A stretch of 64,000 bases of DNA from Halarchaeum rubridurum (lineage in GTDB: Archaea > Halobacteriota > Halobacteria > Halobacteriales > Halobacteriaceae): positions 62,001 to 126,000 of the forward strand of contig NZ_BMOO01000005.1 of NCBI RefSeq assembly GCF_014647115.1. Direction: 5' to 3'. Shown piece after piece: positions 5,508 through 30,500 of this stretch; the stretch's first letter is position 1; every line of letters begins with the position of its first letter. Under the pieces are notes generated by a model, which was not told the origin of the DNA, searched no databases, and saw nothing but the letters and a program-made list of their open reading frames with translations. The translations under genes and the position numbers were made by a program.

Positions 5508-5544
5508 ACGCGGCGTTCGACGCCGCCGGGGAAGAACGTTCGCC

Positions 5545-5701
5545 CGACGAGGCTTACGCCTCGTCGAACTGGGCAGGACTCCGTCCTGCGTGCTCAACGA
5601 GGCTCCGCTTCGCTACGCCTCGTCGAACTGGGCGGAGCGGAGCTCCGCTTGCCCGACGAACCCTTTCAGGCTTCGTCGAACTGGGCGACGCGGGGCGTCG
5701 C
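5545..5701. repeat. Tandem array of three paired-hairpin units
   Basis: Three units each consist of a larger palindrome built on CGACGA...TCGTCG, a linker AACTGG and a tight 7+3+7 hairpin. The tight hairpins are GCAGGAC-TCC-GTCCTGC (5573-5589), GCGGAGC-GGA-GCTCCGC (5632-5648) and GCGACGC-GGG-GCGTCGC (5685-5701). The repeated block TCGTCGAACTGGGC occurs at 5561, 5620 and 5673. The small arms differ in sequence but each remains fully complementary. The array fills most of the gap between two minus-strand genes and would be transcribed past the end of the dehydratase gene, so it could form RNA hairpins there. Confidence 0.8.
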
Positions 5702-5718
5702 GTGCTCGACGAGTCGCT

Positions 5719-6957
5719 TCACTCCTCGTCGAACAGCGTCTCGCCCTCGACCATGTGCGCCTCGACGGCGTCCATGTCGAGCGTGAGACCGAGGCCGGGC
5801 TTCTCGGGAATCTCGATTCGGCCGTCCTCGATGACGTCCTCCTCGACGAGGTCCGCCCACCAGCCGAGCTCGTAGGAGTGGTACTCGACGGCGAGGGCGT
5901 TCGGGATGGCGGCACCGACCTGCGCGGACGCCATCGTGGCGATGGGCGAGGAGACGTTGTGCATCGCCACCGGGACGTAGTACTGGTTCGCCACGTCCGC
6001 GATCTTCTGCGTCTCGCGCATCCCGCCGACCTTCGGGAGGTCGGGCGCGACGATGTCGACCGCCTGGTTCTCGATGAGCCGACGTTCCTCGGTCACGCGA
6101 TAGCGGTTCTCGCCGACCGTAATCGGCGTGAGCGTGGACTTCGTGACCTCCTCTTGCACCTCGAGGTTCTCCGGCGGGACGGGGTCTTCGAGCCACCAGA
6201 CGTCGTACTCCTCGATGGCGGCCGCGAGGCGCTTCGCGCTCCCGCCGGAGAACGTCCAGTGGCAGTCGAAGGCGACGTCCGCGCGGTCCTTCACGCGCTC
6301 CGTCACGGCCTCCACGATTTCGGCCTTGTGCCGAATCTCGCCCGGGCGGAGGTGGCGGTTCGCGCGGTCCTTCTCGTGACCGGAGGGGACGTCGAGGTCG
6401 AACTTGAGGGCGTCGTAGCCGAGTTCCTCGACGACGCGCTCGGCCTCGTCCGCGCAGGCCTCGGGGTCGGCCTCCGCCTCGGTGTGACAGTCGCAGTAGA
6501 CGCGCACCTCGTCTCTGTACTTCCCGCCGAGAAGCTGGTAGGCGGGCACGTCGAGAATCTTGCCGGCGAGGTCGTGGAGCGCGACCTCGATGCCGGCGAT
6601 GGCGGTGACGGTGACGCCCTCGACGCTCCCCTCGCCGCTCATCTTCTGGACGAGGTGCTCGTAGAGCCGGTCGATGTCGAGGGGGTTCTCGCCGATGACG
6701 AACGGCGCCATCCGGTCGATGAGCTCGGGGACCCCCGCGCCCCAGTAGGCCTCACCGGTGCCGACGATGCCCGCGTCCGTGTAGATACGGACGAGCGTCC
6801 ACGGGAAGTTCCCATCCACCATCGTCGTCTGCACGTCCGTAATCTCGACGTCGCGCCCGCCCCCGCGCTCCGCCGTTACGCCCATCGTGTCCGCGGAGAG
6901 TTCGCGCATCGTGTACTCCGCGTTCGGGTCGTGGAGCTCTCGGTAGTCCTTCGCCAT
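5719..6957 (-). CDS. Sugar-acid dehydratase of the enolase superfamily, probably D-gluconate dehydratase
   Basis: The 412-residue product belongs to the mandelate racemase/muconate lactonising branch. The N-terminal capping domain includes ITDVQTTMVDGNFPWTLVRI and the lid loop GTGEAYWGAG. The barrel includes the acid-base region DALKFDLDVP, the metal ligands FDCHW, WLEDPVPPEN and VGENRYR, and a late VAMHNVSSP. It closely resembles haloarchaeal gluconate dehydratases of the semi-phosphorylative Entner-Doudoroff pathway, which convert gluconate to 2-keto-3-deoxygluconate; a related aldonate is possible. MAKDYRELHD is chosen as the start; five more codons in frame to 6972 are less likely. The pathway regulator gfcR lies 1.5 kb away, which supports the role. 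Confidence 0.8.
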   Translation of the reverse strand: MAKDYRELHDPNAEYTMRELSADTMGVTAERGGGRDVEITDVQTTMVDGNFPWTLVRIYTDAGIVGTGEAYWGAGVPELIDRMAPFVIGENPLDIDRLYEHLVQKMSGEGSVEGVTVTAIAGIEVALHDLAGKILDVPAYQLLGGKYRDEVRVYCDCHTEAEADPEACADEAERVVEELGYDALKFDLDVPSGHEKDRANRHLRPGEIRHKAEIVEAVTERVKDRADVAFDCHWTFSGGSAKRLAAAIEEYDVWWLEDPVPPENLEVQEEVTKSTLTPITVGENRYRVTEERRLIENQAVDIVAPDLPKVGGMRETQKIADVANQYYVPVAMHNVSSPIATMASAQVGAAIPNALAVEYHSYELGWWADLVEEDVIEDGRIEIPEKPGLGLTLDMDAVEAHMVEGETLFDEE

Positions 6958-9149: not shown

Positions 9150-9593
9150 ATGACGTTCGACCCGATGAGCGAGGGGCTGGACGACGACGAGGTGCAGGAG
9201 ACGGTGGACGCGGCCATCGAGAACAACGACGTCGTCCTCTTCATGAAGGGGACGCCCGTGATGCCCCAGTGTGGCTACTCGAAGCGCGCCGTCGGCCTCA
9301 TCTCGCAGTACCGCGAGGACTTCGAGGCCGTCGACACCCTCCAGAACCTCGGGGCGTTCCGCGAGGCCCTGAACGAGCACTCCGGCTGGGAGACGATTCC
9401 CCAGACGTACGTCGACGGCGAGTTCGTCGGCGGGAGCGACGTCCTCGCGCAGCTCGACGAGGAGGGCGACCTCGCGGAGACGCTGAACGCCGACGACGCC
9501 GACGCGGATGCGGACGAAACCGAGGAGGCCGACGCGACGGCCGCCCCCGACGGCGGAAGCGACGAGGACGAGGACCTCGATGCGCCCTTCTAA
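9150..9593 (+). CDS. Monothiol glutaredoxin (Grx4/GrxD type)
   Basis: The 147-residue product has one glutaredoxin domain with the active site MPQCGYSKRAVG (CGYS, one catalytic Cys). The upstream family block VVLFMKGTPV and the glutathione-site region ETIPQTYVDGEFVGG are both present. The last 45 residues are an acidic Asp/Ala tail. CGFS-type monothiol glutaredoxins carry or transfer iron-sulfur clusters; haloarchaea use gamma-glutamylcysteine rather than glutathione, so the ligand is unclear. The ATG at 9150 is chosen over a GTG two codons upstream. Confidence 0.85.
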   Translation: MTFDPMSEGLDDDEVQETVDAAIENNDVVLFMKGTPVMPQCGYSKRAVGLISQYREDFEAVDTLQNLGAFREALNEHSGWETIPQTYVDGEFVGGSDVLAQLDEEGDLAETLNADDADADADETEEADATAAPDGGSDEDEDLDAPF

Positions 9594-9640
9594 ACGACCT
9601 GCGAGGGCGATTTCCCCGACCCACCGGGGTCGGGGGTGTC

Positions 9641-9691
9641 ACCAGAACGCTTCGCGTTCTGGTTGCTAACCAGAAGTCTCCGACTTCTGGT
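9641..9691. repeat. Paired hairpins beside the IS200/IS605 element
   Basis: The two hairpins are ACCAGAACGC-TTC-GCGTTCTGGT (9641-9663) and ACCAGAAGTC-TCC-GACTTCTGGT (9669-9691), joined by TGCTA. Both share the outer ACCAGAA/TTCTGGT arms. Positions 9638-9664, read on the minus strand, are identical over 27 nt to 30432-30458 inside dnaK. The pair lies just before the 3' end of tnpA and could be part of the left end of the element. Confidence 0.85.
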
Positions 9692-9711
9692 GATGAAGCC
9701 CGACACTCGAC

Positions 9712-10161
9712 TTAGTGTTCTGTCTCCTCGATATACCGTTCAACCACTTCCTCCGACACGGCTCCCGTCGTTCCCACGTAGTATCCGACCTTCCAGAATC
9801 CACCGCCCCAGAAATACGACTCCCGAATCTCGGGATACCGTTCCAGTAGGTGGTTTCCTGAGTACGACTTGAACTGCCGAGCAATATCTGCTGGACTGTG
9901 TTTCGAATCTGTTTGCACGAACAGGTGTACGTGGTCGTCTGCAATCTCCAACGCCAGAATTTCGTGCTCGAAGTGGTCGGCAGTCTCCGCAAACAACTCT
10001 CGCACATCGACCTCCACTACATCGAGAACCGGGTGGCGGTACTAAGCGGGATCGGAGATCCCGCGAGGTACGCAAATCGAAGATTTGCTTGACTTGGGAC
10101 ACCAGACGAAGTGATACTTGCAGGAACTGACCGAATGTGCGTGACTGCGGTACTCCTCCAT
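9712..10161 (-). pseudogene. tnpA: IS200-type HUH transposase TnpA, interrupted by a 51-bp insertion
   Basis: Read from the ATG at 10161 the frame gives MEEYRSHAHSVSSCKYHFVW and then CPK. Next come 17 foreign codons ending in TAG (10042-10092), after which the family sequence resumes with YRHPVLDVVEVDVRELFAET. The resumed part contains the HUH pair (DDHVHLFV) and the late FKSYSGNHLL and GGGFWKVGYYVG blocks. The whole frame is 150 codons. Removing the stop and the insert leaves 132 residues, the normal TnpA size, so the insertion is exact and in frame. The catalytic Tyr region (VGYYVG) is present in the downstream part. Without readthrough the protein stops after about 40 residues. Confidence 0.9.
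10042..10092. repeat. Paired-hairpin insertion inside tnpA
   Basis: Two hairpins, GCGGGATC-GGA-GATCCCGC and GCAAATC-GAA-GATTTGC, are joined by GAGGTAC and bounded by AAGC and GCTTG. The trinucleotide ACT occurs on both sides, so the event can be read as a 48-bp element with a 3-bp target duplication. Geometry matches the pairs at 9641 and in dnaK. The insert brings an in-frame TAG. Confidence 0.85.
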
Positions 10162-10170
10162 CCCTCTTCC

Positions 10171-10181
10171 CTATATTTATG
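10171..10181. promoter_or_regulatory. Shared AT-rich promoter between tnpA and tnpB
   Basis: CTATATTTATG lies 25-35 nt before the tnpB ATG and reads as a TATA box on either strand. Confidence 0.5.
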
Positions 10182-10205
10182 ACAGTCTGGAACGATTGTC
10201 AAAGC

Positions 10206-11507
10206 ATGGGTGAAGAAGCCACGAAAACCATTCAGACGCGCCTACACATAGCGTCTGGTGAACGGTCGTGGCTTCACGACGCCCGCCTCGCTTCGCGCGA
10301 GATATTCAACGAGACCATCCGCCTCACACAACACGGGGACAGTCGCACCGAGATACAGCGAGAGGTTGACCGCGACGACTTCTTGCGGAACAACAAGTGC
10401 GCGGTCGTCGGCAAAGCCCTCCAGACGTGGGACTCCTACCAGTCACTCAAAGAGTGGTGGGAGAATCAAGACGACCCAGATAGTGGTAAGCCGACGCCGC
10501 CGAGTACGGACAGCTCTGGTGCGTACCCGCTCGTGATGGCGCATACGGAGGGCTATCGCCTTACCGTTGACGACACGAACCGCGTCCAGTTCCGCATCAG
10601 CCCGAAACCCTACAAGAAGGTGAGAGGCCACCTTCGGAGTGAACCGGACGCGATGGACGAACTTCGAGACGCTCTCGCGTCGGACGAGGTGGATGTGGGG
10701 CAAGCCGAACTCCTGTACCGCGATGGCGTGTACTACCTACACGTCACGGTCACACGCGAGTTCGACGTGCCCGAACCCGACACCAGCGACACGCTTGTTG
10801 GCGTGGACATCAACGAGCGCAACGTCGCTCTCACCGCCCTCGACCGCGAGACGATGCGGACGAAGGGCACACTCGTCCCCGACTCCGGGCGAGTAAAGCA
10901 GGAACGCCAACGCTACCACACGATCACTACTCGCTGTCAGGAACACGGCAAGACGAGCATCCACCGGAAACTCGGTGACAAGGAGGAACGATTTACCGAG
11001 TGGGTGTTGCATCGGCTCTCCCGTGCTGTCGTGGAGTTCGCAGAGCAGTTCTCGAATCCGGTTATCGTGTTCGAGGATATGAGTGGCATCCGCGAGGAAA
11101 TACAGTACGGCTCGTATATGAACCGCCGGTTGCACAAATTGCCGTTCCACAAGTTCAAGAAGTTTGTCTCGTACAAGGCAACGTGGCGAGAGATTCCGAC
11201 GGATACGGTGGATGCGTACTACAACTCGAAGACGTGTTCGTGCTGTGGTGAGCGTGGCAGTCGACAGGGACGGCGGTTCCGGTGTCCGAACGACGAGTGT
11301 GACGTGGCGCAAGACCACGCTGACCGGAATGCGTCGGTGAATATTGCGTGGCGCGAGAGGGCGAAACTCGACGGTAATACGACGAATTACCGGACTCACA
11401 AAACCCAGCCGCAGGTCAGGTTGGTGCGTCTGTCCGGGTCGGGGCGTGTAAGCCGCCCAACCTCATCCCGTTCCCTTGCGGAACAGGGAGTGCTAGCGCA
11501 CGGCTGA
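10206..11507 (+). CDS. tnpB: TnpB, RNA-guided nuclease of the IS200/IS605 family
   Basis: The 433-residue product carries the RuvC-like triad: Asp in LVGVDINERN (about 200), Glu in VIVFEDMSG (about 287) and Asp in DHADRNASVNIAW (about 382). A zinc ribbon SCCGERGS/CPNDEC sits between the last two, so all catalytic residues are intact. TnpB proteins cleave DNA guided by an RNA from the element's right end and help retain the IS. The guide RNA would cover the tnpB 3' end and the bases after 11507. The Arg/Ser-rich tail overlaps palindromic DNA of the right end. Confidence 0.92.
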   Translation: MGEEATKTIQTRLHIASGERSWLHDARLASREIFNETIRLTQHGDSRTEIQREVDRDDFLRNNKCAVVGKALQTWDSYQSLKEWWENQDDPDSGKPTPPSTDSSGAYPLVMAHTEGYRLTVDDTNRVQFRISPKPYKKVRGHLRSEPDAMDELRDALASDEVDVGQAELLYRDGVYYLHVTVTREFDVPEPDTSDTLVGVDINERNVALTALDRETMRTKGTLVPDSGRVKQERQRYHTITTRCQEHGKTSIHRKLGDKEERFTEWVLHRLSRAVVEFAEQFSNPVIVFEDMSGIREEIQYGSYMNRRLHKLPFHKFKKFVSYKATWREIPTDTVDAYYNSKTCSCCGERGSRQGRRFRCPNDECDVAQDHADRNASVNIAWRERAKLDGNTTNYRTHKTQPQVRLVRLSGSGRVSRPTSSRSLAEQGVLAHG

Positions 11508-11638
11508 GGGAATTACAAAAGCCTCGGGCCACCGCGCCCCAGGCTGTTTACCCCCGCTCAATCGCGACCGACGCGGTTCTTCTCTCGACGCGCTGTGCCC
11601 GAGAGTCACTCACGTCGACCGAAGCGACGGCGTTCGCG

Positions 11639-28541: not shown

Positions 28542-30500
28542 ATGGCCAGTCAGAAGATTCTCGGTATCGACCTCGGTACCACGAACAGCGCGTTCGCGGT
28601 GATGGAGGGCGGCGAGCCCGAGATCATCGCCAACAGCGAGGGCGAGCGGACGACGCCCTCCGTCGTCGCGTGGGACGACGGCGAACTCCTCGTCGGGAAA
28701 CCCGCGAAGAACCAGGCCGTGCAGAACCCGGACCAGACCGTCGCCTCCATCAAGCGCCACATGGGCGAGGAGGACTACACGGTCGAACTCGGCGACGATG
28801 AGTACACGCCCGAGGAGGTCAGCGCGCGCATCCTCCAGAAGATAAAGCGCGACGCCGAGGACTACCTCGGCGACGACGTTGAGAAGGCCGTCATCACGGT
28901 CCCGGCGTACTTCAACGACAAGCAGCGCCAGGCGACGAAGAACGCCGGCCAGATCGCGGGCTTCGACGTCGAGCGCATCGTCAACGAGCCCACGGCGGCC
29001 TCGATGGCGTACGGCCTCGACGAGGAGGGCGAGAACACGGTGCTCGTCTACGACCTCGGCGGCGGGACGTTCGACGTCTCCGTCCTCGAAATCGCCGAGG
29101 GCGCGTACGACGTCATCGCCACGAACGGCGACAACGACCTCGGTGGGGACGACTGGGACGAGGCCCTCATCGATCACCTCGCCGACGAGTTCGAAAACGA
29201 ACACGGCATCGACCTCCGCGAGGACCGACAGGCCCTCCAGCGCCTGAAGGACGCCGCCGAGGAGGCGAAGATCGAACTCTCCAGTCGCAAGGAGACGACC
29301 GTCAACCTCCCGTTCATCACGGCGACGGACGACGGCCCCGTCCACCTCGAACAGGACGTGACGCGCGCGACGTTCGAGAAGATCACGAGCGACCTCATCG
29401 AGCGCACCGTCGGCCCGACGCAGCAGGCCCTCTCCGACGCGGGCTTCGACGCGAGCGACATCGACGACGTCGTGCTCGTCGGTGGCTCCACGCGGATGCC
29501 CCAGGTCCAGGAGAAGGTCGAGGAGGTCGTCGGCCAGGAACCCCGGAAGTCCGTCAATCCCGACGAGGCCGTCGCGCTCGGCGCGGCCGTCCAGGGCGGC
29601 GTGCTCTCCGGTGACGTCGACGACGTCGTCCTCCTCGACGTCACGCCCCTCAGCCTCGGTATCGAGGTGAAAGGCGGGCTCTTCGAGCGCCTCGTGGAGA
29701 AGAACACCACCATCCCCACGGAGGCCTCGAAGGTGTTCACGACCGCCGCGGACAACCAGCAGAGCGTCCAGATTCGCGTCTTCCAGGGCGAACGCGAAAT
29801 CGCGGAGGAGAACGAGCTCCTCGGCGCGTTCCAGCTCACCGGCATCCCGCCCGCGCCCGCGGGTACCCCGCAGATCGAGGTCTCCTTCGAGATCGACGCG
29901 GACGGCATCGTCCACGTCTCCGCCGAGGACCAGGGCTCGGGTAACTCCGAGGACATCACCATCGAGGGCGGTGCGGGCCTCAGCGACGAGGAGATCGAGC
30001 GGATGCAGGAGGAAGCGGAGGAACATGCCGCCGAGGACGAGGAGCGCCGCGAGCGCATCGAGGCCCGCAACGAGGCCGAGACCGCCGTTCAGCGCGCCGA
30101 GACGCTCTTAGAGGAGAACGAGGAGATGGTCGACGCGGAGACCCGGGAGACCATCGAGGCCGACATCGACGACATCGAGGCACTCCTCGAGGACGAGGAC
30201 GCCGAGACCGAGGCCATCCAGGACGCCACCGAGGCCCTCAGCGAGGACCTCCAGGAGATCGGCAAGCAGGCCTACCAGCAGCAGGCCGGCGCGGGCGGTG
30301 CGGGCGCCGGTGCCGGTGGCATGGGCGGTATGGGCGACATGGGCGACATGGACCCCGAGGACGTCGACGCCGAGGACTTCGTCGACGCCGACTTCGAGGA
30401 CGTTGACGAATCACGTAGCGATTCGTCAGCCAACCAGAACGCGAAGCGTTCTGGTGACGTTGACGAATCGGACGATGAGTCGGACGCCGACGAGAACTAA
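28542..30500 (+). CDS. dnaK: Hsp70 chaperone DnaK with a palindromic insertion near its C-terminus
   Basis: The 652-residue product has the ATPase signatures [29 protein letters not shown] and [17 protein letters not shown]. The linker [11 protein letters not shown] and the substrate domain up to the helical lid follow. The tail has a Gly/Ala/Met stretch ([16 protein letters not shown]) and an acidic end. Codons 620-638 are encoded by a paired-hairpin sequence and add 19 residues in frame, including the basic [10 protein letters not shown], to an otherwise acidic tail. The insertion lies after the folded domains, so the chaperone should remain functional. Confidence 0.96.
30399..30469. repeat. 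Paired hairpins inside dnaK with 14-bp flanking direct repeats
   Basis: Hairpin 1 is TGACGAATC-ACGTAGC-GATTCGTCA (30404-30428). Hairpin 2 is ACCAGAACGC-GAA-GCGTTCTGGT (30433-30455). GACGTTGACGAATC occurs at 30399-30412 and again at 30456-30469, exactly 57 bp apart. Positions 30432-30458 match 9638-9664 (opposite strand) over 27 nt. Confidence 0.9.

Follow-up and report, generated by a model that had tools for sequence, protein, structure and literature searches.

The 'small mobile repeats' of the SMR-A kind in Haloquadratum walsbyi (HqIRS42, HqIRS43 and HqIRS55) are ~110 bp long, carry prominent terminal inverted repeats and have an unknown mobiliser (PMC3119063). Repetitive extragenic palindromes and bacterial interspersed mosaic elements (REP/BIME) are believed to move in single-stranded form, mobilised by the Y1 transposase TnpA-REP, and a cross-complementarity rule has been described for the hairpin feet of REPtrons (PMC8266576). 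Here we analyse a 64,000-nt stretch of Halarchaeum rubridurum DNA (NZ_BMOO01000005.1, contig C5 of a 2.8-Mb assembly, positions 62001-126000, + strand; the window), in which a 51-bp double-hairpin insert that we call unit A splits tnpA, the transposase gene of an ISH34-like IS200/IS605 insertion sequence (IS; Table 1). The nearest known kind to unit A, compared by description only, is SMR-A of Haloquadratum (PMC3119063). Sequence comparison identifies unit A as an insertion in tnpA and suggests many arrivals at a single codon boundary, across four TnpA lineages.

Removal of unit A joins WCPK to YRHPVLD and leaves a complete Y1 transposase, matched by Pfam Y1_Tnp over 120 of 121 positions. A relative from another genus of the family (L009) encodes an uninterrupted TnpA of 132 residues that is 96% identical to that of the window, where the gene ends prematurely at an in-frame TAG (GCT TAG TAC on the coding strand). 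These data confirm an initial annotation of the stretch, which described a 51-bp interruption of tnpA at 10042-10092, built of two hairpins with 3-nt loops and a 7-nt linker and containing an in-frame TAG; the stems are perfect, at 8 and 7 bp. The view that this is an insert and not part of the gene is also upheld, as 96 of the 131 distinct tnpA copies compared, which fall into four divergent TnpA lineages (i being the window's), are empty, the nearest relative among them, and related units are also found outside tnpA. The annotation had named copies with the same 51 bp and a functional protein as evidence to the contrary. Open-frame copies do exist (L038, L040, L056, L061, L081, L095, L104 and L114), so that the caution was partly apt, yet unit A is still an insertion because its presence and absence are scattered on the trees.

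On the coding strand unit A reads TCAA-GCAAATC.TTC.GATTTGC-GTACCTC-GCGGGATC.TCC.GATCCCGC-TTAG, and on the + strand CTAA-GCGGGATC.GGA.GATCCCGC-GAGGTAC-GCAAATC.GAA.GATTTGC-TTGA. It folds as single-stranded DNA at -14.2 kcal/mol (z = -5.8), and paired long, perfect, short-loop hairpins are found at only three places in the window, unit A being one. Pairing in the two stems is complete (235 of 235 cells) across 16 distinct unit A sequences; seven stem pairs have changed on both sides (31 cells versus 8.0 in shuffles), and only two cells hold G-U. This near-absence of G-U suggests constraint or correction at the DNA level, by selection or repair. The triloops are mostly GNA or its complement TNC, as if the hairpins flip. 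Terminal repeats are confined to TCAAGC/GCTYAG ends, and no Rfam family covers the insert, the sole match being sot2652 at the IS right end. The linker marks two subfamilies: units with GTACCTC number 33 in tnpA and one elsewhere, and those with GGACCTC none in tnpA and 14 elsewhere, in intergenic arrays and nested in a second double-hairpin unit (unit B).

Unit A is largely a haloarchaeal feature. Its core GCGTACCTCGCGGGATCnnnGAT, allowing up to two mismatches, is present in 54 of 392 haloarchaeal genomes, some two-mismatch matches resembling ordinary coding sequence, and a reversed control pattern gave no matches. Scanned for the pattern, the full set of GTDB species gave 30 loci, all haloarchaeal save one on a short contig of a metagenome-assembled genome; this contig (L093) is labelled Pacearchaeota yet carries a haloarchaeal tnpA, and is probably mis-binned. 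Viral contigs and phage records held no match, and plasmids held one. At the boundary between WCPK and Y, 35 of the 131 tnpA copies are filled, always in the same orientation; lineage i contributes 9 of these, lineage ii 16, lineage iii 6 and lineage iv 4. Most of these inserts are 51 nt long, but two are 49 nt (L093, L100), a 109-nt version has unit B nested inside it (L029/L041, L118), and 72-nt entries (L091, L098) combine a 49-nt unit A with a portion of another hairpin insert immediately upstream. The 49- and 109-nt versions contradict the suggestion that a multiple-of-three length is set by the intrinsic size of the element. Where stop codons are present, they are supplied by the TTAG end or, as in all of lineage iii, by a GTA triloop.

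Several lines of evidence point to repeated arrival. In the tnpA trees, filled copies are scattered tips beside empty sisters (window/L009, L115/L132, L098/L031 and L118/L171), and Fitch parsimony counts 24 changes, or at least 16 when only nodes with support of at least 80 are used. For lineages i, iii and iv the parsimony count is close to its value with shuffled labels, so carriers are not clumped. Additionally, L121 and L060 hold sequence-identical units in tnpAs that are ~80% alike. Junctions compared with empty homologues are clean, without target duplication, at both tnpA sites described here, where unit A lies in unit B and where unit B lies in unit A. Outside tnpA, unit A keeps the same TCAA...TYAG ends at an unrelated target, TGA/TGA in the unit B linker, where it occurs in both orientations (L073, L075 and L077). 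A 3-bp duplication (ACT, or AGT on the coding strand) had been proposed from the shared flanks; AGT is indeed shared, but the constancy of the ends at unrelated targets indicates that this is coincidental.

Hairpin-loop targeting was rejected as a general rule, as the empty site folds as a loop in some lineages, whereas in lineage iii few positions are less loop-like than it.

With moderate confidence, we interpret unit A as a non-coding, double-hairpin mobile mini-element that inserts without target duplication, has a subfamily almost confined to one tnpA codon, and is probably moved as folded single-stranded DNA by a Y1/HUH enzyme acting in trans, in the manner of a homing parasite. The lack of target duplication and the hairpin pair in each unit are a pointer to single-strand transposition of this kind. 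Under such a mechanism the transposase would be supplied in trans, each hairpin would serve as an IS-end hairpin and its 4-nt foot as a guide, and unit A would be a homing-like parasite of IS200/IS605 elements that acts as a brake on them when tnpA is broken. The coding strand has the feet TCAA and CCTC, and the opposite strand has CTRA and GTNC. Read on the strand opposite tnpA, the arrangement is flank-TA, then CTRA-hairpin-GAG-GTNC-hairpin-TTGA, then flank, with foot positions 2 and 4 nearly invariant. By the REPtron rule the CTRA and GTNC feet would select the junction dinucleotides TA and GA, which is suggestive.

Some observations count against this interpretation. The fit to the guide rule is post hoc, and neither unit B nor the unit A copies in unit B linkers obey the rule. 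No enzyme was tied to unit A by any analysis made, the REP tetranucleotide GTAG is absent from it, and its ends and hairpins are unlike the host IS ends (TCTAAAC/GTTTAC). Furthermore, insert type partly tracks TnpA lineage, all of lineage iii having the GTA loop, which could reflect spread by recombination among tnpA copies.

Such recombination is the main rival to transposition in trans: after one or a few entries into tnpA, gene conversion from filled to empty copies in the YHFVWCPKYR stretch would have spread the insert with no transposase acting on unit A. We think this possible, though unlikely. The partial tracking of lineage fits it, as do the near-confinement of GTACCTC-linker units to tnpA, the single orientation of the insert in 35 of 35 carriers, and the same complex double insert in two IS copies of one genome that belong to different sublineages (L091, L098). 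However, sequence within 12 nt of the junction shows no clear excess of differences over controls (75 of 762 versus 177 of 2,148), so ordinary gene conversion has left no trace. The window flanks are also native (CCCAAG on the left and TACCGCCACCCGG on the right), the right one equal to that of insert-free L009 and the left within one base of it. Conversion tracts would need to be nearly the insert alone, and a related subfamily is located elsewhere in both orientations.

A different possibility is that the insert does not inactivate the transposase, being removed from RNA or skipped by the ribosome while tnpA is kept by selection; we regard this as improbable. When each carrier was compared pairwise with its nearest insert-free copy, the ratio of nonsynonymous to synonymous differences (pN/pS) was 0.160 for 19 copies whose inserts introduce a stop or break the frame, against 0.132 for insert-free pairs, a near-equality that fits either very recent insertions or non-inactivating inserts. 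Once the insert is removed, 34 of 35 flanking frames are free of stops, and two genera have in common a stop-bearing filled IS segment that is 98.7% identical over ~0.9 kb (L087, L101), in line with this explanation. Yet carriers are mostly recent tips, in which little decay is expected, and five have additional frameshifts or stop-bearing second inserts (L046, L065, L090, L066 and L080). By visual inspection, the RNA at three filled tnpA sites folds into two separate hairpins with no bulge-helix-bulge at the junctions, the take-off codon AAG does not match the landing codon TAG/CAG, and IS copies are mobilisable in trans. The stronger form, in which filled tnpAs are functional despite stops and frameshifts and unit A is a neutral, intron-like homing element excised from mRNA or jumped by the ribosome, we consider very improbable. 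In the 14 filled copies where the frame is open through the insert, it adds 17 residues. AlphaFold models of open-frame carriers have a mean predicted local distance difference test score of 60, with the extra residues placed, in the one carrier where they were modelled, as a loop of low confidence that follows beta 1 and precedes the first helix; tolerance of the insertion by TnpA is possible on this modelling.

It is highly improbable that the insert is ancestral to tnpA and was precisely lost many times. The same codon boundary in four lineages and the open frame in 14 carriers agree with ancestry, but identical inserts lie in tnpAs ~80% alike, 96 of 131 copies are insert-free and carriers are mostly isolated tips. 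The version in the initial annotation, a 48-bp element that made a 3-bp target duplication and hopped into the IS after the IS reached this genome, agrees with the AGT on both sides and the empty nearest IS copy, but is scarcely credible given the constant TYAG at other targets, the single unit A in the genome and the same insert at the same codon elsewhere.

Unit A as a deletion derivative of the host IS is ruled out, as its ends and hairpins differ from those of the IS.

The nesting unit B has the layout TCGTY-hairpin-TGA^TGA-hairpin-AACSA, where ^ marks the entry point of unit A, and is itself a duplication-free insertion in the first hairpin of unit A (L041, L118). At 54 bp, it also occupies a second tnpA site, between GAGATACTGTCG and CTCCACATCTC, in five copies of lineage ii (L066, L080, L103, L116 and also L086). 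This site lies just before the HUH motif (between EILS and LHISPDHVH), in tnpAs already filled at the first site.

Other hairpin units occur around these elements. In L051, L091, L098 and L111, which represent two TnpA lineages, a third kind of hairpin insert (GTCAATC...GATTGACTGCTTGCAAATC...) precedes unit A in tnpA by a few bases. A further double hairpin (TTGACGCAAATC...GGTTTTCGGAA) sits in the IS left-end hairpin of eight copies (L011, L013, L014, L017, L023, L029, L046 and L114) and is absent from the close copy L040. Within the window, a tandem hairpin array whose conserved linkers resemble CGAACTGGG separates two adjacent genes at positions 5540-5720. Conserved intergenic hairpin arrays framed by CTTTTGC...GATGAAAAGC lie 3' of genes at four other loci (L074, L076, L077 and L079).

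The claim that such an element moved after the IS arrived is not supported for the window's unit A, because a genome search found no second copy and the IS may have carried it in. The left end of the same IS holds an unrelated double hairpin, unit C (CCAGAA..TTCTGG hairpins), which is multi-copy in this genome: it occurs at the IS left end, in the dnaK tail, and at C3:303656, C8:14197-14245 and C10:8538/8827. Thus, for unit C, movement into a resident IS is plausible.

The dnaK occurrence is a unit-C-like double hairpin, in frame in the acidic C-terminal tail (window 30404-30455); it is present in one congener (G003) and absent in two (G001, G002). A peptide similar to this insert is found in a different gene of G002 (L242).

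Table 1. Coordinates in the window of the IS, its genes and its inserts
Feature	Position	Strand	Basis or detail
ISH34-like IS200/IS605 element, whole	9589..11551	+	left tip TCTAAAC, right tip GTTTAC
Unit C, unrelated double hairpin, ~57 bp, no target duplication, IS left end	9637..9693	+	absent from all other copies compared
tnpA, IS200-type Y1 transposase, split by unit A after WCPK	9712..10161	-	translation, Pfam, insert-free relative
Unit A, 51-bp double-hairpin insertion, tnpA-resident subfamily	10042..10092	-	coding strand TCAA-H1-GTACCTC-H2-TTAG
In-frame TAG, from unit A's own TTAG end	10042..10044	-	
Hairpin H2, 8-bp stem, TCC triloop on coding strand (GGA on + strand)	10046..10064	-	
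7-nt linker GTACCTC, mark of tnpA-resident subfamily	10065..10071	-	
Hairpin H1, 7-bp stem, TTC triloop on coding strand (GAA on + strand)	10072..10088	-	
tnpB, intact, Cas12f1-like TNB domain	10206..11507	+	domain match
sot2652 sense-overlapping RNA, IS right end	11386..11575	+	Rfam match

These findings define a sharp and testable target, one tnpA codon that is repeatedly hit in four transposase lineages. If the mover is a Y1 transposase, the transposon's own enzyme would carry a parasite that disables that transposon. Whether transposition or recombination spread the unit, tnpA is a natural system in which to assay single-strand transposition and homing by 51 bp of non-coding DNA.

Double-hairpin elements of fungal and sponge mitochondria resemble unit A in having two hairpins per unit, in being mobile and sometimes in genes, and in nesting or lying in tandem (PMC2800124). 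They are organellar, with no known kinship to unit A, and the part of that source drawn on here describes no recurring single-codon target. Palindrome-associated transposable elements (PATE), or terminal-only IS605 remnants (52 bp; PMC3119063), share with unit A a size of ~50 bp, palindromic structure, haloarchaeal hosts and the lack of target duplication, but PATE palindromes resemble IS605 ends, whereas the ends and hairpins of unit A do not match its host IS, the only IS compared. REP/BIME (PMC8266576) are like unit A in their short perfect palindromes with loops of 3-4 nt and in their pairing around a linker. They differ in having a GTAG-type foot, in place of the TCAA/CCTC and CTRA/GTNC feet of unit A, and unlike them unit A has two mutually dissimilar hairpins, one site inside a transposase gene and no dedicated TnpA-REP linked to it.

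SMR-A and unit A are both small, non-coding and haloarchaeal, and both nest in other elements (PMC3119063). Unit A shares the absence of target duplication, as its clean junctions against empty homologues show, and the preference for IS605-type elements, with 33 of 34 GTACCTC units in IS200-type tnpA. It differs in its length of 51 bp and the modest ends noted above, where SMR-A has ~110 bp and prominent inverted repeats, and it lies inside tnpA at one codon, with two internal hairpins, whereas SMR-A is mostly outside the transposase frame. Nested composites of unit B with unit A or unit C, however, reach ~105-115 bp, the size of SMR-A, and have TCGTT.../...AACGA-like ends. Modular two-hairpin units that nest in one another and insert without duplication may represent a candidate anatomy for the 'enigmatic' small mobile repeats of haloarchaea.
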